Below, one piece after another: positions 2,734 to 63,003 of a stretch of DNA of 64,000 nucleotides. Origin of the DNA: an uncultured Sphingomonadales bacterium. GTDB taxonomy: Bacteria; Pseudomonadota; Alphaproteobacteria; Sphingomonadales; Rhodothalassiaceae. The position numbers and the translations under genes were made by a program. The notes under the pieces were generated by a model. The model was not told the DNA's origin, ran no database searches, and was given only the letters and a program-made list of their open reading frames with translations. Position 1 is the first letter of the stretch. Each line of letters opens with the position of its first letter. The DNA lies in assembly GCA_947499155.1 (NCBI GenBank), contig CANMND010000005.1:1-64000 (forward strand). The letters are read 5' to 3'.

Positions 2734-5709
2734 ATGAACATACAAAGACCTTCTCATTTGAGAAGTCTGTTGCTGTGCGGGGGATCCATAGGAGCGATGC
2801 TTCTTGGAACGGCATATGCACAGGCACAAACCAGTGACCAGAACGCAGTAGCAGACTCCAGTGCCAGCGGGTCACTTGAGCAGATTGTCATCACCGGTTC
2901 GCGCATCACCCGTGGCAATCTCACATCACCCAGCCCGGTAACAACCATTGGCGCTGCAGAAATCGAGGCGCGCGGGACAATACGTGTTGAAGATATGCTC
3001 AACACACTGCCGCAGGTCTTTGCGGGGCAAGGCGCCAATATCGCCAATGGTGCTACAGGCACTGCAACAGTCAACCTTCGCGGCCTTGGTGCGTCACGCA
3101 CTCTCGTCCTGGTGGACGGCAAGCGGCTGCCTTTTGGTTCTCCTTTGGCAGTTCCGGCTGACCTGAACCAGATCCCGTCACAGCTTGTTGAGCGCGTGGA
3201 AGTCCTGACCGGTGGCGCCTCGGCCATCTATGGTGCAGATGCGGTGGCGGGCGTCGTCAACTTCATCATGAACAGAAATTTTGAAGGCGTTGAAATCGAC
3301 GTCCAGGGCAGCGGCTATCAGACCAGCAATAAACGGGGCCGTATAAAAAATGTACTGGATGACTTCAACATCGAAGCACCTGGATCTACCTTTGATGGTC
3401 GCGGGCTTGATCTCAATATCGTGGTTGGGACCAATACATCCGACGGCAAGGGTAATGTGACCGCATATTTCAACTGGAAAAACCAGAATGAAATTATTCA
3501 GGGCGATCGCATCAGCAGTGCCTGTGCATTCGGGACACGCAATGCGGGCACTGACTTTTCTTGCTCCGGTTCAGGCACAACAGCACCCGCCCAGTTCACT
3601 GATTTCGGGATCGCTGACTCGTCGTTCGGATTCACCCTTGATGGCCAAGGTGGCATCAGGGATTTTAATACGGACACAGATACACATAATTTCGCACCTC
3701 TGAACCACTATATCCGCCCGGCTGAACGGTATTCCGCCGGAGCATTCGCCCATTATGAAATCATGGAAAATGCTGAGCTTTATGCAGACTTTTCCTTTCA
3801 CGACGACAGGTCTGTCGCCCAGATCGCACCGGGCGGTAATTTCTTTGTCACAGAGTCGATCAACTGTGACAACCCCTTCCTAACGCCGGATATGGTTCAG
3901 ACAATATGCCTTAATAACGGGGTCGATCCCCAGGCCGCTGATCCTGAAGACCGCAACGCGCTTCTATTCATCGGTCGCCGGAACGTTGAGGGTGGCGGTC
4001 GCCAAAGCGATATTCGCCATACGTCTTACAAGGTGGTCGGCGGCTTGCGTGGCACCCTGATGGACAATTGGGATTACGATATTTTCGGTCAGTATTCGAC
4101 TGTGATCTTCCAGGAAGAATCCCGGAACGACTTCAACGTCAACCGCCTGGTCCAGGCGCTTGAAGTCCGCATCGATTCTGCCACCGGACAAGCCGCCTGT
4201 CAGTCAGCTATTGATGGTACCCAGCCAGACTGCGTTCCCTGGAATCCTTTTGCGATCGGCGGGGTCACGCCTGAATCTCTTGCCTTCCTGCAAACACCCG
4301 CAATGCGGCAAGGGGATATCACGCAGAAAGTATTTGGCGGAACCCTCGCCGGTGACCTTGGTGCCTATGGACTGACCAGCCCGTTTGCCACCACTGGCGC
4401 ACAAGTGGTTGTCGGCACAGAGTATCGTGAAGACTTCCTTAGCCTGCGCAATGACCTGATATTCCGTAATGGTGACCTGGCGGGTCAAGGTGGCCCCAGT
4501 GAAGACGTGGACGGTGTCGTTAAGGTTTATGAATTCTTTGGCGAATTGCAGATCCCATTGGTTCAGGACAAGCCATTCATTGAAGAACTGACAATCAATG
4601 GTGCCTATCGCTATTCGGATTTCTGGCTGACAACTGGCACACAAAGCACATACGCCATGGGAGCCACCTATTCTCCGACTTCCGATGTGAAGGTCCGTGG
4701 CCAGTTCCAGCGGGCAACACGCTCACCAAACCCCGTTGAACTCTTTTCACCAAGCTCCATTGGCCTAATTGATCTCACGCAAGGCTCAAACGGCCAGTTT
4801 GATCCCTGTGCTGGCGCAAACCCAGCCCGCAGCCAGGCAGATTGCGCCCGCTCGGGTGTCACTGCAGCCCAATATGGCAATGTGGCCGACAATCCGGCAG
4901 GCCAGTTCAATGCGCTTTTCGGTGGCAATCCTGATCTCGATAGTGAAAAGTCTGACACCTTTACGATCGGTGCGGTCTTCACACCGCGTGTCGTACCGGG
5001 TCTCACCCTTTCCGTCGATTATTTCGACATCAAGGTAAAAGGCTTCATTGACACGGTTCCACCGGAACTTGCGCTCAACAACTGCCTTGATACGGGTGAT
5101 GCATTCTTCTGCAGCCTCATCAATCGTGGCCCAGGCGGTCAACTTTGGGTGAATGACCTGTCCTTTATTGAGGCGACCAACATCAATACCGGATCGCTTT
5201 CAACCAAGGGCATCGACATTAGCATGACCTATGACCTCGACCTTGAGGACCTGGGATCCATGCGGATTGATTATGTCGGGACTTATCTCGACAGTCTGGT
5301 TACCGAACCACTGCCCGGTGAGACGCCTTTTGACTGTGCAGGTTTTTACAGCAGCGACTGTGGCATTCCAAACCCTGAGTATCGCCATCGTTTGCCTGTG
5401 ACATGGAACACGCCATGGGGCGGTCTGAGCACACAGCTCACCTGGCGCTATTTTGCAAGCGTTAAGCAGTTCGGCGCTTCTCCTGCACCGATTAATGCCA
5501 AGCTTGGGGACCAGAACTACTTCGACCTCTCCTTCAGCATGCAAGTGCACGAAAATATCCGCTTGCGTGGTGGCATAAACAACATCTTCGACAATGACCC
5601 ACCAGTCAGTTCAACGGTGGGTGCGGGCTTTGGTAACGGCAATACCTTCCCGCAGGTCTATGACGCACTTGGCCGCTTCATGTTCCTCGGGGCGACCTTC
5701 ACCTTCTGA
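2734..5709 (+). CDS. TonB-dependent outer-membrane receptor 1
   Basis: A 991-residue receptor. A signal peptide of about 32 residues ends in an AQA-QT type site. It is followed by a TonB-box-like segment (EQIVITGSRI), a plug domain (RGLGASRTLVLVDGKRLP, GGASAIYGADAVAGVVN) and a 22-strand-type barrel ending in the aromatic Phe expected for BAM-assembled proteins. Loops carry Cys pairs spaced 8-14 residues apart, typical of long extracellular loops. The ligand cannot be read from sequence; such receptors import siderophores, cobalamin, glycans or peptides. The gene starts after AGGAGGGGACACC, diverges from the TPR oxygenase and converges on the Asp/Asn hydroxylase gene. It is only distantly similar to the two receptors further along, sharing the signal-peptide motif RSLLL. 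Confidence 0.95.
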   Translation: MNIQRPSHLRSLLLCGGSIGAMLLGTAYAQAQTSDQNAVADSSASGSLEQIVITGSRITRGNLTSPSPVTTIGAAEIEARGTIRVEDMLNTLPQVFAGQGANIANGATGTATVNLRGLGASRTLVLVDGKRLPFGSPLAVPADLNQIPSQLVERVEVLTGGASAIYGADAVAGVVNFIMNRNFEGVEIDVQGSGYQTSNKRGRIKNVLDDFNIEAPGSTFDGRGLDLNIVVGTNTSDGKGNVTAYFNWKNQNEIIQGDRISSACAFGTRNAGTDFSCSGSGTTAPAQFTDFGIADSSFGFTLDGQGGIRDFNTDTDTHNFAPLNHYIRPAERYSAGAFAHYEIMENAELYADFSFHDDRSVAQIAPGGNFFVTESINCDNPFLTPDMVQTICLNNGVDPQAADPEDRNALLFIGRRNVEGGGRQSDIRHTSYKVVGGLRGTLMDNWDYDIFGQYSTVIFQEESRNDFNVNRLVQALEVRIDSATGQAACQSAIDGTQPDCVPWNPFAIGGVTPESLAFLQTPAMRQGDITQKVFGGTLAGDLGAYGLTSPFATTGAQVVVGTEYREDFLSLRNDLIFRNGDLAGQGGPSEDVDGVVKVYEFFGELQIPLVQDKPFIEELTINGAYRYSDFWLTTGTQSTYAMGATYSPTSDVKVRGQFQRATRSPNPVELFSPSSIGLIDLTQGSNGQFDPCAGANPARSQADCARSGVTAAQYGNVADNPAGQFNALFGGNPDLDSEKSDTFTIGAVFTPRVVPGLTLSVDYFDIKVKGFIDTVPPELALNNCLDTGDAFFCSLINRGPGGQLWVNDLSFIEATNINTGSLSTKGIDISMTYDLDLEDLGSMRIDYVGTYLDSLVTEPLPGETPFDCAGFYSSDCGIPNPEYRHRLPVTWNTPWGGLSTQLTWRYFASVKQFGASPAPINAKLGDQNYFDLSFSMQVHENIRLRGGINNIFDNDPPVSSTVGAGFGNGNTFPQVYDALGRFMFLGATFTF

Positions 5710-5736
5710 TCCTTGTCAGAAGTACAGACAAAAAAG

Positions 5737-5770
5737 AACAGTGGGCTCCAATGGGGCCCACTGTTTTTGT
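5737..5770. terminator. Rho-independent terminator between convergent genes
   Basis: The hairpin ACAGTGGGC(t)CC-AAT-GG(g)GCCCACTGT is followed by a T-run (TTTTTGT). It ends receptor 1 and, having an A-run on its other side, may also work for the convergent hydroxylase gene. Confidence 0.85.
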
Positions 5771-5795
5771 GCTTTATAAAGATAGGACAAGCCGG

Positions 5796-6866
5796 TCACT
5801 GATGTGCGTCAAAGGCCTCGATTGCCTGGAACAGACTGCGAATAAATACCCGTTCTTCTTCTGCCAGTTCCGGTCGCCAGACTTCAAATAGCAAAATGAC
5901 CCTTTGATGATCACTATTGTTCCAGGCTTCATGTTCAATTGAATCATTAAAGACCAGCATTTCCCCTTCCTTCCAATCGCGTATCTGATTACCGACACGA
6001 AACTGGCATCCAGCGGGAACAATCAGGGGCAAGTGACAGATAAGACGAACATTCAAAAGGCCTGTATGAGCAGGAATATGCGTGCCCGGACGCAACAGCG
6101 AAAACAGGATTGAGGGTGTGCGACCCGGAATATCGCATAAGGGGACATGCCTGAACGCCTCCATCGTCTTTGGGAACGCACGCGCGTGCTCTACAAGCAA
6201 CCGGCTGTCCTGTTGCAAATAAAGCGCTCCCCAATCAGGATTATCAAGTAAAGGCGTGCGGTGAAGCTGGACCGCCTCACTGCTTGATGTCAGATAAGGC
6301 GAGAATTCCTGTCCATGCTCGAAATAGCCCTCAAGTTCACTGCGAATCTCTTCCCATACGGATTCCACCCCAGCCACCCACGGAAAGTCCTGCCGTTTAT
6401 AAAACTGAATGGTGGGAATATCCGGGTAGTAAAAAAGTGTCGGCTCTTGCGCGTATCTTTGTTGGCGACCGAACAGGATATCCAAAGACATACCAAACCG
6501 GCTGGCGGGATCAGAAACTGCGAACCCTTCGCTTTTAAGATGATCTCGTAGGAATTCTTCATAAAGTTTGCTGGATTGTGCGCAGAACTGTTCTGCACGC
6601 TGCACTTCGGATTCAATGTGAGTAATATCTCCTGAATAGGAGCGTGCAATGCGGGCTGCAGCAGAGTAAAAAGATGTGGCAGTTCGGCGTTTGCCCGCCT
6701 CCACCAACAAATCTGCTTTCAGCATCAGGGCGAGAAAACTGGACGGCGCAACCGCCAAAATCCTGTCCACAAGCGCTTCCGCCTCAAAATGCCGACCAGC
6801 TTTGGCAAGATCCGATGCCTGCTGAAACGCCACGGCAAGCTGATCTCCTGTCATCGACGCCGACAT
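5796..6866 (-). CDS. Aspartyl/asparaginyl beta-hydroxylase family protein with N-terminal TPR-like helices
   Basis: A 356-residue protein. I chose the start at 6866 because AAGGGGGAAC lies just upstream of that ATG; the open frame continues upstream without a ribosome site. The N-terminal 100 residues are TPR-like. The C-terminal domain matches aspartyl/asparaginyl beta-hydroxylases: H267-T-G269, H312 (SIEHEAWN) and R322 (HQRVILLFEVWRP). The spacings (45 residues between the His, then 10 to Arg) mirror human AspH H679-x-G681, H725 and R735, including Gly in place of the usual carboxylate ligand. The predicted reaction is Fe(II)/2-oxoglutarate hydroxylation at the beta-carbon of Asp or Asn. 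The gene sits among TonB receptors and 8.3 kb from a gene for an Asp/Asn-rich secreted peptide, a plausible but unproven substrate. Confidence 0.88.
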   Translation of the reverse strand: MSASMTGDQLAVAFQQASDLAKAGRHFEAEALVDRILAVAPSSFLALMLKADLLVEAGKRRTATSFYSAAARIARSYSGDITHIESEVQRAEQFCAQSSKLYEEFLRDHLKSEGFAVSDPASRFGMSLDILFGRQQRYAQEPTLFYYPDIPTIQFYKRQDFPWVAGVESVWEEIRSELEGYFEHGQEFSPYLTSSSEAVQLHRTPLLDNPDWGALYLQQDSRLLVEHARAFPKTMEAFRHVPLCDIPGRTPSILFSLLRPGTHIPAHTGLLNVRLICHLPLIVPAGCQFRVGNQIRDWKEGEMLVFNDSIEHEAWNNSDHQRVILLFEVWRPELAEEERVFIRSLFQAIEAFDAHQ

Positions 6867-7008
6867 AATGTTCCCCCTTAAATAAAGACGACTATGGTCA
6901 ATGGCTCTCTTCCCCCGATTAAAACAAGCATAAAATATCGTCAGAATATTGAAACAGTCTTCAATAGAGGCTATCGATAGCAGGAATTGAATCAAAGGGG
7001 ATTATTCC

Positions 7009-7293
7009 ATGATACGGCTGCTTACAGGCTTCCTCCTTGGCGCACTATTTCTAGCGTCTCCCGTATCCGCACAGGAAGACGTCGTGTCGGACTTTCTGTC
7101 CTGTGATCCTCTGGTTATCCCTGCAGAGCGCCTTACCTGCTTTGACAGTATCCTCAAGCAATACAAACTGAGGTACGGCCTGCTGAAAAGCGATGCGCAA
7201 AGCCTGGCCAGCGAAAACAGACAGCGCCCCCGCGCGGTCCCACAAGGCCGGGTAGACGCGGAACGATTGGATAAGCCACTCCCCAACAGGTAA
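7009..7293 (+). CDS. Small exported protein of unknown function, one C-x15-C pair
   Basis: A 94-residue protein starting after AAAGGGGATTATTCC. It has a clear signal peptide (MIRLLTGFLLGALFL, then SPVSA-QE), so the mature periplasmic form is about 72 residues. The mature part has two Cys in a C-D-P-x4-PAERLTCFD arrangement. This resembles the C-x-x-I-x-d-x-x-RLxCYD motif found at the start of many small uncharacterised periplasmic proteins, and a disulfide is likely. The C-terminus is basic and Pro-rich. It diverges from the hydroxylase gene with only 142 bp between starts, suggesting shared regulation. No function is assigned. Confidence 0.7.
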   Translation: MIRLLTGFLLGALFLASPVSAQEDVVSDFLSCDPLVIPAERLTCFDSILKQYKLRYGLLKSDAQSLASENRQRPRAVPQGRVDAERLDKPLPNR

Positions 7294-7763
7294 TAACAGA
7301 CTGGCGCTAATCAGCCATGGCGAGATAAACAGACTGTCATGGACGCCGGATTATAGGCACATTACACTCATAAGTTGCGACACCCCCGGCACAGTCATAA
7401 CATTATGCTTTTGGCACCCTATGCTCGGTCGAGCTTGCTGTGCCTTAGAATTTGTCTGCGCATCAATATTTTACAGTCACAAGACCGGACTCCCCTTTCA
7501 GAATAATTTATATGCGAAGATCAATTTCTGAGCGGCATGTTTTTCGTTGTATAAAAATCACACATTCTACTTAAAGCAAATTAATGCTCAGGCCGGACTT
7601 TACAGTCTAGGCCTCACATGCTGTCCTCCAAACGAGAAGTATTCTATCGGGATCCACTATTGGTCTATGCTTATGCCAAGCCAAACAGATCCCTCCAGAT
7701 GACTTCTTCAACAATAAGAAGCTCGTTTAGTAGCTAAAATGACTAAAAAGGGGAGGAAATTCC
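7294..7763. promoter_or_regulatory. Upstream region of TonB receptor 2
   Basis: This 470-bp stretch holds no gene I can support. It becomes AT-rich from about 7490. The segment ATTCTAC...AATTAATGCTC at about 7566-7590 resembles ATTCTAC...AATTAATACTC upstream of receptor 3 (about 11680-11710). The paralogues may therefore share an upstream control element as well as coding sequence. Confidence 0.4.
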
Positions 7764-10700
7764 GTGAATTCAGTCAAAAACTCAAAATTACGATCGCTCT
7801 TGTTATGTGGCAGTTCCTTAGGGGTATTGTTCTTAGCCTCTGCAACTGCACATGCAAGTGGCATAGAGGAGCTGGAGCAATCAAAAGACGAACGTATCGT
7901 CCTTGCACAAGCCCAAACTGATGCACAAATGCAAACTGCAGATGCATTGAATGATACAGATCAACTCGAACAGATCATCGTAACCGGCTCTCGTATTTCC
8001 ATGCCGAATGTGATGTCTTCGGTTCCAGTGACATCCATCACTGCTGGTGATTTGACCTTGAAAGGGAACGTTTCACTAGGTGATGCTCTTAACGAACTGC
8101 CAGCTCTGCGTTCAACTTTCAGCCAGGCGAACTCGACCCGCTTTATCGGAACATCTGGCCTGAACCTGCTTGATCTGCGTGGATTAGGTACGTCACGTAC
8201 TCTGGTTCTGGTTAACGGACGACGCCATGTCACATCCCAGCCGGGTTCGTTTAGTGTCGATACCAATACAATTCCCAGCGACCTGCTTGAAAGAACTGAC
8301 GTCGTAACGGGCGGCAACTCCGCAATCTACGGGTCTGACGCCGTGGCAGGTGTTGTCAACTTCATTATGAAGCGTGATTTTGAAGGTATATCTGCGCGTG
8401 CCCAAGGTGGCATTTCTGATCGAGGTGACCGAGAATCCTATTTTGCCAGCCTTACCGCCGGGCATAATTTTGCCGACAGCCGCGGAAATATCGCAGGGTC
8501 CTTTGAATATTCCAAATCCAAAGTCCTCTTTTTCACGGAACGTGACAATCAAACCGGTGCGCTTACCGGCAGGTCCCAGTTCAACTCCACACAAAACACC
8601 ATTGGAGAAGGTCCTGAGGGTGATGGTGTACCTGATAACTCATTCTTAAGGGGTGTCCGAAACGGTAATATCTCCGAAGGCGGGCTTTATACATCATTCT
8701 GCCCATCAGCCGTCCCCTCAGACGATCCGAACTTTGCAGCAATTGAAGCACGTCGCGCCTTCAACTGTAATGGATTACGAGGCAATACAGGTTCCGAACT
8801 GGGGAGAACCTTTGTATTTGACGATTCAGGGACCCTGATCGTCAATCCGGTTACAACCGACTTGCGTCCTTTTGGATCTTCCAACTCAATTGGCGGACTT
8901 GGCTCAACCCTGCGGTTAACAGGCATGCTGCAGCCCGGCCTGGAAAGATATTCGGGTAACATTCTCACAAGCTTCAAAGTTTCAGAATCTTTCCAACCAT
9001 TCCTGGAAGCAAAATACGTACGCATCGATTCACTGCAGGAAGGGCAACCTACGTTCCACAGCAACCCATTCAGCATTGACAACCCGTTCCTGAATGATGC
9101 CAGCCGTGCCGTCCTTCAACAAAGCCTAGCACCGGGTGCCACGTCCTTCTCTGCTTTCCGGTTCAATGTGGATTTCGGCGGGCGCGGGGAAGAACATAAA
9201 CGTGAAACCTATCGCATTGTCGCGGGCGCAGAAGGCACCTTCAATAAGACCTGGTCTTATGAAATATCGGCAAACTTCGGTAAAACTACAACGTTCTACG
9301 AAACCAACGGTAATATCGACAATGTAAAATTTGCAGCAGCCAGAAACGCTGTACGAGATTCCAGCGGTAACATTGTTTGTGCGATCAATGCAGATGCTGA
9401 CACATCCAATGACGACCCAGGTTGCGTGCCGGTCAATCTGTTCGGTTTTGGTGCACCGTCCCAGGAAGCACTCAATTACTTTATCGTCAATTCTTTCCGC
9501 AACCAGAAAGCGACCCAATTTGACGTGACTGGGTTTATCTCTGGCGATAGTGCTCAGCTTTTCGAATTACCGGGAGGCCCCATAGGCTTTGCATTGGGTG
9601 CTGAGTACCGTCGTGAGACCGCTTCTTCAGCATTCGATGCTTTCACAGCCAGCGGCGCAACATTCCTGAATGCCATTGCCCCCTTTGATCCGCCTTCTTT
9701 TGAAGTTTCAGAAGTTTTCGGAGAAATCAGGGCTCCAATTCTGAATAACCACCGTTTCATCGAAGAGTTAACTGTTGAAGCCTCGGCGCGCTATTCTGAC
9801 TATAAGGGGTCTGTAGGGTCTGTGTTTGCCTATAATTTTGGCGGCGTGTATTCTCCTGTCTCAGATATTCGTATCCGTGCAGGTTATGCGCGCTCTGTTC
9901 GCTCTCCCACGCTTGGCGATCAGTTCAGTGCCGGAAGCCAGACTTTCGTGAATGGGCTCTCTGATCCATGTAGTGCGCAAAATATCGATGAAAATCCAAA
10001 CCGTCGTGCGAATTGCGCTGCGTTTGGTGTGCCTGCAACTGAGATTGTTAAAGGCGTTGAGGTTCCGTGGACCAATCAACCTGCATCTGGGGTTTCTGGA
10101 TTACAAGGCGGGAACCCAAATGTAACTGAAGAAAAGGGAAAAAGCATAACAGTCGGCTTTGTTGCCACACCACGGTTCATTCCGGGGCTGACAGCATCCG
10201 TCGACTACTATGACATCAAGCTTAACGACGTCATATTCACTCTGGGTGGACAAACCATCATTAATCAGTGTTTCGACAGTCCCAGTGGGATTGACAATCC
10301 GTTTTGTGCTGCAGTTTTCCGCAACCCTGACGGTACATTCCAGGGACAATCAGACCGTGCTGTCGGTGGCACCACAGAGTCTTTCGCCAGGACAGGACAA
10401 TCGTTCCTTGCCGGTCCGTTTAACTTTGCAAGACAGGAAACATCCGGCATTGATATCGACCTGAGCTACCGCACGGATCTGTTCGATAAAGTCCAGGCCA
10501 GCTTCCGTGGAATTGGCTCCTATGTAATCAAAAGGAACAACTTCACCGACATCAATCAACCCGACTTTAAGGAACGCCTGAAATCCGAACTGGGTGATCC
10601 GGCGTGGGCAATCAGCTTCACAACTGATCTTACTTATGAAGCGTTCAACCTTCATTACAACATGCGGTATGTCGGCCGTCAGACCATCGGGGAATTCGCA

Positions 10701-10949
10701 CTGCAGAACTCAGTGCAGGGACGTCCTCCGCTGAACCCGGATGCATTCCAGGATATCTTCCATCCGGCAGTCGCATACCATAACTTCCGTTTGTCCTATG
10801 ACATTAACGCCAACTTTGAGGCATATGCTGGCGTTGACAATCTCTTTGACCGCTTGCCCCCTAATGGTGATCTGGCCACCGGCGGTGGTGGTGCGATTTG
10901 GGACAACGTTGGTCGCTTCTTCTATGTCGGATTTAAAGCCAACTTCTAA
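7764..10949 (+). CDS. TonB-dependent outer-membrane receptor 2 (paralogue of receptor 3)
   Basis: A 1061-residue receptor starting at GTG after AAGGGGAGGAAATTCC. Its signal peptide (LRSLLLCGSSLGVLFL, site near AHA-SG) precedes an unusual acidic and Gln-rich linker of about 45 residues. The TonB-box-like EQIIVTGSRI and a plug (RGLGTSRTLVLVNGRRH, GGNSAIYGSDAVAGVVN) follow. The barrel ends KANF, with a terminal Phe. It is strikingly similar to receptor 3 over its full length. It forms its own transcription unit, with a strong terminator downstream. The ligand is unknown. Conserved Cys pairs occur in several loops (for example NQCFDSPSGIDNPFC). Confidence 0.95.
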   Translation: MNSVKNSKLRSLLLCGSSLGVLFLASATAHASGIEELEQSKDERIVLAQAQTDAQMQTADALNDTDQLEQIIVTGSRISMPNVMSSVPVTSITAGDLTLKGNVSLGDALNELPALRSTFSQANSTRFIGTSGLNLLDLRGLGTSRTLVLVNGRRHVTSQPGSFSVDTNTIPSDLLERTDVVTGGNSAIYGSDAVAGVVNFIMKRDFEGISARAQGGISDRGDRESYFASLTAGHNFADSRGNIAGSFEYSKSKVLFFTERDNQTGALTGRSQFNSTQNTIGEGPEGDGVPDNSFLRGVRNGNISEGGLYTSFCPSAVPSDDPNFAAIEARRAFNCNGLRGNTGSELGRTFVFDDSGTLIVNPVTTDLRPFGSSNSIGGLGSTLRLTGMLQPGLERYSGNILTSFKVSESFQPFLEAKYVRIDSLQEGQPTFHSNPFSIDNPFLNDASRAVLQQSLAPGATSFSAFRFNVDFGGRGEEHKRETYRIVAGAEGTFNKTWSYEISANFGKTTTFYETNGNIDNVKFAAARNAVRDSSGNIVCAINADADTSNDDPGCVPVNLFGFGAPSQEALNYFIVNSFRNQKATQFDVTGFISGDSAQLFELPGGPIGFALGAEYRRETASSAFDAFTASGATFLNAIAPFDPPSFEVSEVFGEIRAPILNNHRFIEELTVEASARYSDYKGSVGSVFAYNFGGVYSPVSDIRIRAGYARSVRSPTLGDQFSAGSQTFVNGLSDPCSAQNIDENPNRRANCAAFGVPATEIVKGVEVPWTNQPASGVSGLQGGNPNVTEEKGKSITVGFVATPRFIPGLTASVDYYDIKLNDVIFTLGGQTIINQCFDSPSGIDNPFCAAVFRNPDGTFQGQSDRAVGGTTESFARTGQSFLAGPFNFARQETSGIDIDLSYRTDLFDKVQASFRGIGSYVIKRNNFTDINQPDFKERLKSELGDPAWAISFTTDLTYEAFNLHYNMRYVGRQTIGEFALQNSVQGRPPLNPDAFQDIFHPAVAYHNFRLSYDINANFEAYAGVDNLFDRLPPNGDLATGGGGAIWDNVGRFFYVGFKANF

Positions 10950-10975
10950 TTCTTGGCTATATCGACAAAAACAAT

Positions 10976-11003
10976 GCCCGCTCCTTTGATAAAGGGGCGG
11001 GCA
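10976..11003 (+). terminator. Terminator of TonB receptor 2
   Basis: GCCCGC(t)CCTTT-GAT-AAAGG(g)GCGGGC forms a near-perfect 12-bp stem 27 bp after the stop codon. Only a weak T-containing tail (AACTTATTT) follows. Confidence 0.8.
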
Positions 11004-11766
11004 ACTTATTTCACAAAGCGGTTAACTGAAATCCAGCGTAAATTATTCCGACTATCACAAGAACAGGGTTTCCGCCTCCCACGTCGCCATTCAGGTGCGG
11101 TTTGGCCAGTGGGCTTGGCTCTGCCGCTGAATCGTGCGAATTAAATGCTGCTGGGCGCCATAGGCTGCTTCATTGATTCCTTCAGCCAGCCCATGGCCCT
11201 ATCTTTCACATCCAGCACAATTTAATGCCCCTCCAAAGACACACGAAGTCTTTGCAACTGACGGCCCACAATTCCCACAGTTCTTAACGGGACAGACGAT
11301 CAGAATTTTCCTCCTCAAACCACATTTCGTAGAATTTAGAGAAATAGTTCTGGCTATCGCCTTCTCGGCAAATGCGAAGGACTCGTATTCGAAAGTGTAA
11401 TGTCCCCGATTATCCGAGGAAGATGCTGTCCATGAACATCCTCACGCAGGAAAAAGCGGTATATGACACAGAGAATGATCACGCTTAACAATTCTCTATA
11501 TTTTTCAATACACGACCGGCTTTATAATACTCATTATAAATAATATTACGATTTATCGTTGTGTTATAAGTACAACACCCCCGCAATTTCACCCGCATTA
11601 TAAGAATATATTATTTACAGCCCGTTCTGCGCGTGATGATTTATCACGGTTAACGAGACTGGTTTGTGCTTGTCCATATTCTACATTTTAAAAATGTAAA
11701 ATTAATACTCCAAAATAAATCCGCCAGTTTTTGAACAATAAGCTGAATAAGAGAGGAGAACCCGCA
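11004..11766. promoter_or_regulatory. Long AT-rich leader and promoter region of TonB receptor 3
   Basis: About 760 bp with no supported gene on either strand. From about 11480 it is strongly AT-rich. It contains a perfect 8-bp inverted repeat TTTATAAT-ACTC-ATTATAAA at 11521-11540 and a near-palindrome TACATTTTAAAAATGTA at about 11684-11700. These are reasonable operator candidates for receptor 3. They do not match the Fur consensus closely, so I do not call a Fur box. Confidence 0.45.
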
Positions 11767-14700
11767 ATGATCATCAATCACTTGAAAGTTCGTTCGTTGC
11801 TACTTCGCAGCAGCTCTGTTGCAATCATGGCGCTGGGTGCAACACAAGTTTCAGCTCAGACCGTCGATGAAATTGATCAGTCCTCACAGAAACGTATCCT
11901 CTCAGCTCAAGCTCAAACCAATACCCAGTCCGATGCAGTGAATGGTCCTCTTGATAGAGATATTGAACAGATTGTGGTTACAGGGTCCCGCATTGCAACG
12001 CCTAATGTGCTGTCATCCATCCCTGTGACATCAATATCGGCTGACGATCTGCGCCTCCGTGGCGATGTCTCGCTGGGCGATGCACTCAACGACCTGCCCG
12101 CCCTGCGCTCAACTTTCAGCCAGGCGAACTCCACCCGCTTTATCGGCACCGCGGGGCTTAATCTTCTTGATCTGCGCGGGCTTGGTACGTCTCGCACCCT
12201 TGTGTTGGTTAATGGTCGCAGGCACATCACTGCGACACCCGGGGACTTCAATGTCGATACCAACACAATCCCCAGTGACCTGCTGGAAAGAACAGATGTC
12301 GTGACCGGCGGCAACTCCGCAATCTACGGGTCTGACGCCGTGGCAGGTGTTGTCAACTTCATTATGAAGCGTGATTTTGAAGGTATATCTGCGCGTGCCC
12401 AAGGCGGCATTTCTGATCGTGGTGACCGGGAATCCTATTTCGCCAGCCTCACTGCCGGCACGAATTTTGACGATAATCGCGGTAATATTGCGGGCTCAGT
12501 TGAATATTCCAAATCAAAAGTTTTGTTCTTCACTGAACGTGACAATCAGACCGGCGCTTTAACTGGCCGGTCCCAATTTAATGTAACACAAAACACCATT
12601 GGCGAAGGGCCCGCAGGTGATGGTATCCCGGATCGGTCCTTCCTAATGGGTGTGCGTAATAACAATATTTCTGAAGGTGGACTATATACCTCTTCCTGCC
12701 CGACGGCTGTACCATCAAGCGACCCCAACTTCGCGGCTGTGGAAGCACGCAGAGCCTTCAATTGCAATGGCCTTCTTGGCAATACCGGCTCCGAACTTGG
12801 GCGGACCTTTGTCTTTGACGACAATGGCACGCTGATTCCCAACCCGATTATCTCCGACTTGCGACCTTTCGGATCCGGGAACTCAATCGGTGGTCTTGGC
12901 TCCACATTGCGCTTGACCGGAATGCTTCAACCTGGCCTTGAGCGCTACTCCGGCAACTTCCTTTCGAGCTATGAAGTGTCAGAAGCGTTCCGCCCGTTCA
13001 TTGAGGCAAAGTATGTTCGCATTGAATCGCTGCAAGAGGGGCAACCCACTTTTCACTTCAATGTCTTCAATACCGACAACCCGTTCCTGAACGACGCCAG
13101 CCGTGCCGTCCTTCAACAAAGCCTGGCTCCGGGTGCCACTGCATTCGGTGCTTTCCGTTTCAACGTAGACTTTGGCGGGCGTGGAGAAGAACACAAGCGT
13201 GAGACCTATCGTATCGTTGTGGGCGCAGATGGCACATTCAATGAAGATTGGTCATATGAAGTTGCCGCCAATTTCGGCAAGGTAACAACCTTCTTTGAGA
13301 CAAACGGCAATATCGACAATGCCAAATTCGCCGCAGCAAGAGATGCAGTGCTTGATGCCAATGATAATATCGTCTGCGCCATCAATACGGACGCCGACCC
13401 GAATAATGACGACCCAGCTTGCGTGCCTGTCAATCTCTTCGGTTTCGGCGCCCCCTCTCAGGCAGCGCTTGATTATTTCGTTGTGAATTCCTTCCGTGAC
13501 GAGAAAGCAACACAGTTTGACGTCACTGCATTCATATCTGGGGATTCATCGCAGCTTTTCGAATTGCCTGGAGGCCCCATAGGCTTTGCACTGGGCGGCG
13601 AATACCGCCGTGAGACTGCTTCGGCTGCATTCGATCCATTCACCGCCAGTGGCGCAACATTTTTGAATGCCATCGCCGAGTTTGATCCACCTTCGTTCGA
13701 AACGAGAGAGCTGTTTGGTGAAGTCCGTGCACCTATCCTGAGCGGTCAACCCTTCATCGAAGAGCTGACCTTTGAAGCATCAGGTCGCTATTCTGATTAT
13801 AAAGGTGCTGTGGGATCGGTCTTCGCCTACAACTTCGGCGGCGTCTATTCGCCCATTTCCGATATTCGCATTAGGGCCGGTTATGCCCGCTCTGTGCGAT
13901 CACCAACGCTTTCCGACCAATTCAGCGCGGGCAGCCAAACATTCGTGAATGGATTGCAGGATCCATGCAGTGCCCAGAACATTGATAACAACCCAAATCG
14001 TCGCGCAAATTGTGCCGCCTTTGGTGTGCCTGCAACGGAAATTATCAATGGTGTCGAGGTTCCATGGACCAATCTTCCTGCATCGGGCGTATCCGGTCTC
14101 CAGGGCGGCAATCCGAATGTGACAGAAGAAAAGGGTAAAAGCCTGACCATTGGTTTTGTCGCTACACCGAGGTTTATCGATGGACTGACTGCCTCAGTGG
14201 ATTATTACGATATTACGCTCAATGATGTCATCTTCACCCTGAATGGACAGACCATCATTGATCAGTGCTTTGACAATCCCAGTGGCATTAACAATCCCTT
14301 CTGTGCTGCCGTGTTTCGTAATCCTGATGGTACGTTCCAGGGTCAGTCCGATCGTGTCGTTGGCGGCTCAACACTCTCTTTCCCTACGACAGGACAGTCA
14401 TTTCTGGCCGGTCCTTTCAACTTTGCACGGCAAGAGACCACTGGTATCGATATAGACCTCAACTATCGTACACAACTGTTCGAGACGATTCAGGCGAATT
14501 TCCGAGGCATCGGCTCCTATGTCATCAAGCGTAACAATTTCACCGACATTGATCAGCCTGACTTCAAAGACCGCCTGAAAAGCGAGTTGGGTGATCCGGC
14601 ATGGGCGATCAGCTTCACCGCAAATCTCGCCTATGAGGCCTTCTCTTTGAATTACAATATGCGTTATGTCGGTCGTCAAACCATTGATGACTTCGAAACT

Positions 14701-14946
14701 CAGAATTCGGTGCAAGGACGCCCGCCGGAAAATCCGGATGCATTTCCCAGTATTTTCCATCCGGCAGTCGCCTATCATAATTTCCGCCTGTCATATGACA
14801 TTAACGAAAATTTCCAGGCCTATGGCGGTGTGGATAACCTCTTTGATCGCCTGCCACCCGATGGCCTTCTCGGCACCGGCGGCGGTGATTCAATATTCGA
14901 AAATGTCGGCCGTTTCTTCTACTTCGGTGTTATGGCTGACTTCTGA
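11767..14946 (+). CDS. TonB-dependent outer-membrane receptor 3 (paralogue of receptor 2)
   Basis: A 1059-residue receptor. I place the start at the ATG at 11767, which follows GAGAGGAGAACCCGCA and opens a normal signal peptide (MIINHLKVRSLLLRSSS, site near VSA-QT). An in-frame TTG at 11731 lies upstream of that ribosome site. The domains follow receptor 2: acidic/Gln-rich linker, EQIVVTGSRI, plug and barrel ending MADF. Sequence identity with receptor 2 is high throughout, and a 98-bp plug segment is identical at the DNA level. Differences include single substitutions in predicted surface loops. The pair is best read as a tandem duplication with later divergence. The ligand is unknown. Confidence 0.95.
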   Translation: MIINHLKVRSLLLRSSSVAIMALGATQVSAQTVDEIDQSSQKRILSAQAQTNTQSDAVNGPLDRDIEQIVVTGSRIATPNVLSSIPVTSISADDLRLRGDVSLGDALNDLPALRSTFSQANSTRFIGTAGLNLLDLRGLGTSRTLVLVNGRRHITATPGDFNVDTNTIPSDLLERTDVVTGGNSAIYGSDAVAGVVNFIMKRDFEGISARAQGGISDRGDRESYFASLTAGTNFDDNRGNIAGSVEYSKSKVLFFTERDNQTGALTGRSQFNVTQNTIGEGPAGDGIPDRSFLMGVRNNNISEGGLYTSSCPTAVPSSDPNFAAVEARRAFNCNGLLGNTGSELGRTFVFDDNGTLIPNPIISDLRPFGSGNSIGGLGSTLRLTGMLQPGLERYSGNFLSSYEVSEAFRPFIEAKYVRIESLQEGQPTFHFNVFNTDNPFLNDASRAVLQQSLAPGATAFGAFRFNVDFGGRGEEHKRETYRIVVGADGTFNEDWSYEVAANFGKVTTFFETNGNIDNAKFAAARDAVLDANDNIVCAINTDADPNNDDPACVPVNLFGFGAPSQAALDYFVVNSFRDEKATQFDVTAFISGDSSQLFELPGGPIGFALGGEYRRETASAAFDPFTASGATFLNAIAEFDPPSFETRELFGEVRAPILSGQPFIEELTFEASGRYSDYKGAVGSVFAYNFGGVYSPISDIRIRAGYARSVRSPTLSDQFSAGSQTFVNGLQDPCSAQNIDNNPNRRANCAAFGVPATEIINGVEVPWTNLPASGVSGLQGGNPNVTEEKGKSLTIGFVATPRFIDGLTASVDYYDITLNDVIFTLNGQTIIDQCFDNPSGINNPFCAAVFRNPDGTFQGQSDRVVGGSTLSFPTTGQSFLAGPFNFARQETTGIDIDLNYRTQLFETIQANFRGIGSYVIKRNNFTDIDQPDFKDRLKSELGDPAWAISFTANLAYEAFSLNYNMRYVGRQTIDDFETQNSVQGRPPENPDAFPSIFHPAVAYHNFRLSYDINENFQAYGGVDNLFDRLPPDGLLGTGGGDSIFENVGRFFYFGVMADF

Positions 14947-15149: not shown

Positions 15150-15181
15150 CAAAAACACCTGCCCAGTTACCCGGACAGGTG
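15150..15181 (-). terminator. Terminator of the double-glycine peptide gene
   Basis: On the minus strand CACCTG(t)CC-GGGTAACT-GG(g)CAGGTG is followed by TTTTTGT. It begins 25 bp after the stop codon of the 46-codon gene. A dedicated terminator argues that this tiny gene is a real, monocistronic transcription unit. Confidence 0.85.
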
Positions 15182-15205: not shown

Positions 15206-15346
15206 TCAGGGCTCACCAAAAGGATCGATACCATTACAAGGTGATAAATCATCGTCATATGGATCGTGATTTACGGGGCCATCGCAATAGCCTCCCCTAA
15301 CGGCTTCAATTTCAGCGATATCCAAATCACGGATTTCGTTATTCAT
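15206..15346 (-). CDS. Double-glycine-leader peptide precursor, Asp/Asn-rich core
   Basis: A 46-codon gene. ATG at 15346 follows a perfect GGAGG with a 5-nt spacer (GGAGGTTATT-ATG). Residues 8-19 read LDIAEIEAVRGG and match the double-glycine leader consensus (LSxxELxxIxGG) position by position: Leu -12, Glu -8, Ile -7, Val -4, Gly-Gly -2/-1. Such leaders are cut by C39-peptidase ABC exporters, releasing microcins, class II bacteriocins or other secreted peptides. The predicted core is 27 residues starting YCDGPVNHDPYDDD. It has six Asp, two Asn, five Pro and two Cys (C21, C37), and is acidic rather than cationic or hydrophobic. That is unlike a membrane-active bacteriocin and suits metal binding. 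It has its own terminator and an AT-rich upstream region. No exporter is encoded in the window. Its role, and any modification by the nearby Asp/Asn hydroxylase, are inference. Confidence 0.75.
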   Translation of the reverse strand: MNNEIRDLDIAEIEAVRGGYCDGPVNHDPYDDDLSPCNGIDPFGEP

Positions 15347-15606
15347 AATAACCTCCAATATATTTTACCTGCATTATCAGGACCAAAGTACCTGATAACA
15401 CGTGATGGAAGCATATCACTATTTTATTGTCAATTTTCAATCTAAGTAATGTTTATTTAAAATTTGTAATATAAAATATATCCATCATATATTCAGACAT
15501 GACGCAGATCAGCATGCTCCCGGCAATAAATTCTTCTCTTTCTAGATGCGCATGACCAGACAATCCAGTGCGTTGTACGACGCTCCATCTCACAAAATAC
15601 GATAAG
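15347..15606 (-). promoter_or_regulatory. AT-rich upstream region of the peptide gene
   Basis: About 260 bp without a gene and markedly richer in A+T than the surroundings. On the minus strand it contains TTGACA (15428-15433) with TATGCT 12 bp downstream, and TTGAAA slightly further upstream. No pair has ideal spacing, so the exact promoter is uncertain. Confidence 0.4.
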
Positions 15607-62345: not shown

Positions 62346-62609
62346 TCGAGCGGATTTATATGCGTTTCTACGGGGTTGCATGACGTTTTGCATTAATGAT
62401 CTGGTAAGGATTATCGGACATGCACAAGCGCCGACCCAGAGGAAAAAACGTCCAATTCCTTCAAAATACGGTAGAATATGGCATGCGTTTTCGTTTTGTT
62501 CTGGCCTGCTGGCAAAAATATGGCGATTTGTAACGCTCAGTGAAAAAGTCACACAAAATCACTCGGGTTTCCCCGAGTCGTTACAGATCGTAATCCATGA
62601 AATAAAATG
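62346..62609. promoter_or_regulatory. Upstream region between mraZ operators and rnpB
   Basis: About 260 bp without a supported gene. It must hold the dcw promoter on the minus strand and the 3' processing region of rnpB. No strong hairpin terminator for rnpB is evident. Confidence 0.4.

Positions 62610-63003
<394 letters not shown>

Follow-up and report, generated by a model that had tools for sequence, protein, structure and literature searches.

Class II microcins have leader features in common, while their mature peptides show low to no similarity, according to PMC10233263. In microcins of the MccV type (PCAT/MFP), as described there, the leader is of about the same length as the leader reported here and ends in GG or GA. 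For alphaproteobacteria, PMC5380434 describes the Cdz system of Caulobacter, contact-dependent bacteriocins with a glycine zipper, in which a type I exporter serves small glycine-rich two-protein toxins. In streptococci, PCATs export GG peptides which take part in cell-to-cell communication and competition (PMC7018657). Of the open-licence PMC papers listed in literature searches, none deals by its title or the beginning of its abstract with orphan GG peptides of alphaproteobacteria.

Here we analyze a short gene for a double-glycine peptide within a stretch of 64,000 nucleotides, hereafter the window. As for the MccV-type microcins, the genome codes for a C39 PCAT and a HlyD protein. Unlike these microcins, however, the window peptide is an orphan with no immunity ORF, its 27-residue core is acidic and the exporter is encoded on another contig. 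The genome also contains on contig 3 a cluster which, judged by eye against PMC5380434, resembles Cdz. The window peptide lies outside this cluster, is not hydrophobic and carries no glycine zipper. It further differs from the streptococcal peptides, which come from Gram-positive bacteria, and no regulator pair was identified for it. The window peptide belongs to a known kind of peptide, of which it is a variant. The sequence-only reading had inferred a new class of possibly metal-binding or signalling peptide; to speak of a new class is too strong, as short orphan GG peptides, some of them acidic, occur elsewhere in the order and class.

The peptide gene and its signals

The peptide gene is located between clpB and a convergently oriented TonB receptor gene (Table 1). 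The 46-codon frame with its GGAGG and the make-up of the core (8 Asp/Asn, 5 Pro and 2 Cys in 27 residues) are as first read from the letters. A terminator had been placed at 15150–15181, and here we find a stem of 11 pairs, 7 of them GC, with a T-rich tail. The terminator scan alone is weak support because five terminator-like sites were seen between positions 14000 and 17000, with 3.0 (sd 1.6) expected. The GC content is 0.44 in the peptide frame, 0.35 upstream of it and 0.53 in the whole window. By its codon score the frame ranks 7th among 385 short frames, which is modest backing for a gene. Ahead of the peptide gene the scan lists no sigma-70-like promoter for the minus strand.

Table 1. 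Features of the peptide locus in the window
Feature	Position	Strand	Basis or remark
Precursor peptide ORF	15206..15346	minus	ATG...TGA, 46 aa, ATG at 15346
Double-glycine leader, 19 residues, MNNEIRDLDIAEIEAVRGG	15290..15346	minus	match to leaders of exporter-adjacent precursors
Acidic core, 27 residues, YCDGPVNHDPYDDDLSPCNGIDPFGEP, two Cys	15209..15289	minus	composition count
Shine-Dalgarno GGAGG	15352..15356	minus	5 bases upstream of ATG
Terminator-like stem with T-rich tail downstream	15156..15181	minus	24 bases past peptide stop
8-base inverted repeat, TTATCAGG-9 nt-CCTGATAA	15374..15398	minus	between presumed promoter and peptide gene
12-base word TTTAAATAAACA	15450..15461	minus	115 bases upstream of peptide ATG

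The inverted repeat upstream of the gene has a fold z of -2.1, and 5 of 200 shuffles equal its fold. Its length is common, with 41 such inverted repeats in the window. The repeat is perfect and, in the stretches of its own genome that were scanned, the sole match of its 7-base arms. It might serve as an operator or as an RNA hairpin. The word TTTAAATAAACA is also present 111 bases upstream of an orphan precursor on contig 1, and a further site was not found in the 210 kb of the genome that were scanned. Such sharing was seen in 1 of 3000 shuffles, a figure uncorrected for five comparisons and therefore overstated about fivefold, as the word was noticed after comparison with five upstream regions. 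The word stems from a word search; a MAFFT alignment of the upstream region with that of the contig-1 orphan left it unaligned.

Comparison of the leader with other leaders

The residues L-12, E-8, I-7, V-4, G-2 and G-1 of the leader agree with the leaders of exporter-adjacent precursors. Thus the fit to the double-glycine consensus which had been noted from the letters holds, and all the hallmarks of a PCAT-substrate leader are present, namely a hydrophobic residue at -12, Glu at -8, Ile/Leu/Val at -7, Val/Ile at -4 and the Gly-Gly. At position -3 the window peptide has Arg, whereas the leaders of its five sister precursors (see below) have Ser.

By itself the bare pattern is not rare. In 150 dinucleotide shuffles of the window, L...[EDQ][LIMV]..[VIL].GG matched 38 times within short ORFs, with at least one match in 34 of the 150 shuffled windows. 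Combined with a Shine-Dalgarno sequence the pattern gave only 1 match in 200 shuffles. A fair test is a leader profile made without the window peptide. We used ten leaders of precursors adjoining C39 exporters, three from the same genome, three from a genome of the family (G004) and four from a genome of the class (G209). Of the 993 window ORFs, the window peptide scores best with this profile, at 14.7 bits (E = 0.0013). The runner-up, a long gene, reaches 8.3 bits, and the top score over 200 shuffled windows is 10.4 bits. Four other orphans, two each from the same genome and G209, score between 14.5 and 19.3 bits. The window peptide is again at rank 1 with a profile from 13 other leaders (E = 0.0022) and with one from eight leaders of other genomes (E = 0.00021), two of which had been obtained via similarity to the window peptide. 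When the profile is restricted to the five remaining own-genome leaders, however, the window peptide does not stand out (rank 3, E = 4). Therefore, the likeness is to a wider class of leaders.

Exporters and sister precursors in the same genome

The genome (2.81 Mb in 25 contigs) contains three C39 matches. The sequence-only reading had proposed a search for C39 ABC transporters and held that a genome devoid of any C39 exporter would speak against the peptide; what we find on contig 3 is a canonical PCAT (L007:7857-10106) in which C39, membrane and ATPase domains are all present, and in its cluster a HlyD-family protein (L007:16907-18331). The catalytic residues of this PCAT are intact, since Cys, His and Asp of its C39 domain align with those of the solved ABC-type bacteriocin transporter 8vp3, a protein which we take to be PCAT1. 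The match on contig 5 belongs to an exporter of the HlyB type (NCBIfam type_I_sec_HlyB, above cut-off) with Thr at the position of the catalytic Cys. The third match is a stand-alone C39 peptidase of 247 residues on contig 1.

Between the contig-3 PCAT and HlyD are three precursors of 101–106 residues with glycine-rich cores and leaders of the form ARELTxLEI[ED][FY]VSG[GA]. As a whole, this cluster (L007:7857-18331) with its PCAT, HlyD and three glycine-rich GG/GA precursors appears Cdz-like or class-II-like. Profile searches revealed two further orphan precursors, on contig 1 at 523 kb (96 aa) and on contig 2 at 440 kb (67 aa). A search of the genome with all leaders, the profile including the leaders of these precursors, gave no additional precursor at E ≤ 10. 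With two orphans outside the cluster plus the window peptide, three of the six GG/GA precursors found here are not linked to the exporter genes, and such a distant location is thus normal in this genome.

Upstream of the contig-2 orphan and of the three cluster genes lies a common module, about 170 bases long (mean column identity 86%; L007:12749, 13746, 16283 and L124:1572). It contains 6 to 11 consecutive G, and changes in the length of this run could switch expression (phase variation). Upstream of the window peptide this module is absent.

Each of the five sisters is followed by a hydrophobic ORF, which is a candidate for an immunity gene. In four cases the ORF has 59–85 residues and starts at most about 75 bases downstream; for the fifth sister it has 171 residues and lies 188 bases downstream. 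No hydrophobic ORF is found downstream of the window peptide, and the listed frames beyond the terminator stem have no strong hydrophobic segment. Unlike the five sisters, the window peptide has no candidate immunity gene adjoining it, though an unlinked one may exist. The cores differ as well. The window core has a net charge of -7 and a GRAVY of -1.00, in line with the earlier description as neither cationic nor hydrophobic, and the five sister cores have net charges of 0 to -2 and GRAVY values of +0.48 to +1.25. There is no GxxxG in the window core and thus no glycine zipper of the Cdz kind. Among the sister precursors, two of five have a match to Bacteriocin_IIc, under the curated cut-off, and in Pfam and NCBIfam up to E = 10 the window peptide matches no family, including Bacteriocin_IIc and MccV.

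Relatives in other genomes

A homologue of the core was not found in two congeners, in the sampled order and class, or in the plasmid, phage, viral and genome-contig searches, so that purifying selection cannot be shown. When the whole peptide was used as query, the family (7 genomes) gave the peptide itself plus two matches (E = 0.22 and 1.1). In the order, 37 of 196 genomes had matches at E ≤ 10, with 0.079 as best non-self E-value, and in the class 32 of 385 genomes at E ≤ 0.5. In total, these searches gave 58 loci in other genomes (family 1, order 28, class 29), 12 of which were read. The G209 match in the class search (E = 0.0073) is a GG relative. A match in G281 (E = 0.0023) was rejected as a relative because it sits in a frame of 491 residues and not in a short GG ORF. 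Genome contigs, viral contigs and plasmids gave no match to the whole peptide; the contig scans, which start from short identical stretches, detect only close relatives. Matches in six phage records (E = 2 or worse) were taken as chance.

We also searched with leader profiles. Profile A2 matched 20 loci in 17 of the 385 genomes of the class at E ≤ 0.1. Seven of these loci were read and comprise the two orphans of the own genome, tandem GG peptides in G475 and four loci with no GG ORF at the match. Profile A3 gave matches in 13 of 396 genomes of the order at E ≤ 0.02, and 8 of the 10 loci read (out of 11 new ones) had a GG or GA ORF. As A3 includes six leaders of the own genome, its E-values for these leaders are not independent. 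Among the seven genomes of the family, A3 matches at E ≤ 0.02 are confined to G000 and G004, both of which have ABC-type C39 exporters. In G001, G002 and G006 neither an ABC-type C39 match nor a leader match at this threshold was found. G003, a fragmented assembly, has C39 exporters and no leader match at E ≤ 0.02. Two more orphan GG precursors are plausible although their profile scores are weak, one in G003 (L132:1375-1707, E = 0.6) and one in G004 (L141:1372-1677, E = 1.1), the latter with a two-Cys core and an acidic end stretch.

The nearest leader-level relatives found come from G209, a genome of the same class, and are two orphans arranged in tandem, 51 and 47 residues long. Their cores are VMEGGCIIWIDLPVEPIPFPSPL and VIDGGCIPDPFEDIFPIGL. 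In common with the window peptide they have a leader of the form xEIRxLxxx[EI/EV]xx[I/V]xGG, a short, net negatively charged core that contains Cys and Pro, and an exporter on another contig, where PCAT and HlyD lie beside four short precursors with quite different cores. In contrast to the single window gene they are two genes in tandem, and their cores are hardly alignable with the window core, on average hydrophobic (GRAVY +0.74 and +0.88) and with one Cys each. This PCAT/HlyD cluster is on contig 1 of G209 (L104:10558-11640), and one of its four GG precursors has a proline-rich core, PYPIPGPYPIPGPYPVPGPIPGP, which consists almost wholly of Pro, Tyr, Ile, Val and Gly.

In the order loci that were read, the cores range from hydrophobic to acidic, and the core in G073 has 75 residues with a net charge of -14. 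Thus, few of the cores read are both hydrophilic and acidic, but the window core is not the only one, and to call it unusual refers to 19 cores from the loci read and not to a census. A search for conserved relatives had been proposed from the sequence alone; no homologue of the peptide turned up in the two congeners, and elsewhere there are leader-level relatives only.

The clpB junction and the TonB receptors

It had been suggested that the peptide is linked to the neighboring TonB receptor. This could not be substantiated, since in G001, G002 and G006 TonB-receptor-like genes come closely after clpB and the peptide is missing; we rejected the receptor as evidence for a partner. Only 135 bases (G002) and 103 bases (G006) separate clpB from the receptor-like gene, too few to hold the peptide. 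In G001 a frame of 98 aa lies 113 bases past clpB and was called the end of a TonB receptor by eye; this frame nearest to clpB has no BLAST match, and the frame next to it has one with 28% identity. The receptors of G002 and G006 are only about 30% identical to the window receptor, and the clpB/TonB arrangement is therefore a recurring kind of junction rather than a case of orthologous receptors. These gene orders show that a neighbor of this kind can occur independently of the peptide, and the TonB neighbor is incidental.

Elsewhere in the window, an Asp/Asn beta-hydroxylase-family protein (5796-6995) and a TPR-2OG oxygenase (433-2262) are interleaved with three TonB receptors (2734-14946). 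A 52% identical relative of the oxygenase adjoins TonB receptors in G002. The hydroxylase-family protein had no match in the stretches of the relatives that were compared.

Discussion

We consider it likely that the window peptide is an orphan substrate of the PCAT and is exported in trans. Its leader very probably acts as an export leader in trans, because it is at rank 1 of 993 in the profile search, one canonical PCAT/HlyD is encoded elsewhere and further orphan precursors exist. We suggest that export proceeds in the following steps. The C39 domain of the contig-3 PCAT, the only canonical PCAT of the genome, would bind the 19-residue leader. Then the precursor would be cleaved after Gly-Gly, and the 27-residue core could exit via PCAT, HlyD and an outer-membrane channel. 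Once mature, the peptide would be strongly acidic and probably closed by one disulfide between Cys2 and Cys17.

Several findings count for export. The profile score is above the best of 200 shuffled windows, the canonical PCAT has aligned C39 residues and a HlyD in its cluster, and orphans exist in the own genome as well as in G209, there too with the PCAT cluster on another contig. Within the family, leader matches at E ≤ 0.02 occur only in two genomes with C39 exporters, and the contig-1 orphan also has TTTAAATAAACA, at an almost equal distance. Against export we count that the core is without homologue, that the own-genome leader profile puts the peptide only at rank 3, that the upstream module is missing, that no sigma-70-like promoter is listed on its strand, that Arg at -3 differs from the Ser of the sisters and that G003 has C39 exporters with no match at E ≤ 0.02.

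The window ORF is probably a real gene. A chance ORF, i.e., a frame in an AT-rich intergenic stretch which resembles a leader by accident, would be compatible with the frequent bare GG pattern in the shuffled windows, the lack of a counterpart in two congeners and the lack of a listed promoter-like site on the minus strand. We regard it nevertheless as quite improbable, given the single match in 200 shuffles once a Shine-Dalgarno is required, the profile score above all 200 shuffled windows, the terminator 24 bases beyond the stop and the codon score. As to its role, the core is probably secreted. Most likely it would be a soluble extracellular peptide that does not insert into membranes, a signal or accessory peptide, although we hold this reading tentatively and with slightly less than even confidence. 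It ranks above the role of a self-toxic bacteriocin, which we think unlikely. A non-toxic extracellular role is favored chiefly because no immunity-like hydrophobic ORF follows the window peptide, in contrast to each of the sisters.

An antibacterial peptide of the microcin or bacteriocin type would share the export step through the same PCAT and differ in its role; it would bind to, or enter through, an outer-membrane receptor of competitors, with resistance encoded elsewhere or not needed. The leader is of the same class as those of the glycine-rich bacteriocin-like precursors of this genome, and diverging mature peptides behind common leader features are just what PMC10233263 describes for class II microcins. 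Still, we would give this role a rather small chance, as the adjoining immunity-like ORF of the five sisters is missing, the core is acidic and hydrophilic with no GxxxG, and relatives have the TonB-receptor-like neighbor and no peptide. It is also conceivable, but improbable, that the peptide is a RiPP precursor with a core modified before export by an enzyme encoded elsewhere. The unusual composition of the core and the presence of the beta-hydroxylase-family protein and the TPR-2OG oxygenase inside the window, within 15 kb, would fit. However, no modifying enzyme adjoins the peptide gene, the neighbors being clpB and a TonB receptor, G002 has a related TPR-2OG/TonB block and no peptide at the clpB junction, and beside the G209 relatives no such enzyme stands out (ORF starts by eye). 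Very improbable indeed is a scheme in which the core would be beta-hydroxylated by the 5796-6995 protein or the 433-2262 oxygenase, secreted by the PCAT, bind metal and be taken up again via one of the TonB receptors between 2734 and 14946.

If the soluble peptide that we favor is real and exported, a bacteriocin-type exporter of a probable alphaproteobacterium also carries a short, hydrophilic and acidic peptide, which comes from an unlinked gene with no immunity partner. Peptide signalling or another extracellular role would then be directly testable in this group. It would further suggest that searches limited to the neighborhood of exporters overlook some exported peptides.

Further observations

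The stand-alone C39 peptidase on contig 1 adjoins a protein which carries LDTARGGF behind a signal-like stretch at its N-terminus (L008:8635-9987). The two possibly form a separate peptidase–substrate pair, which may resemble fap-type amyloid operons. Compared with plasmid records, the FtsZ encoded in the window is closest to FtsZ proteins of alphaproteobacteria, among ten of the 115 matches. At its gathering threshold Rfam detects in the window nothing besides RNase P RNA (class A), which lies on the minus strand near the window end at 62608-63000.
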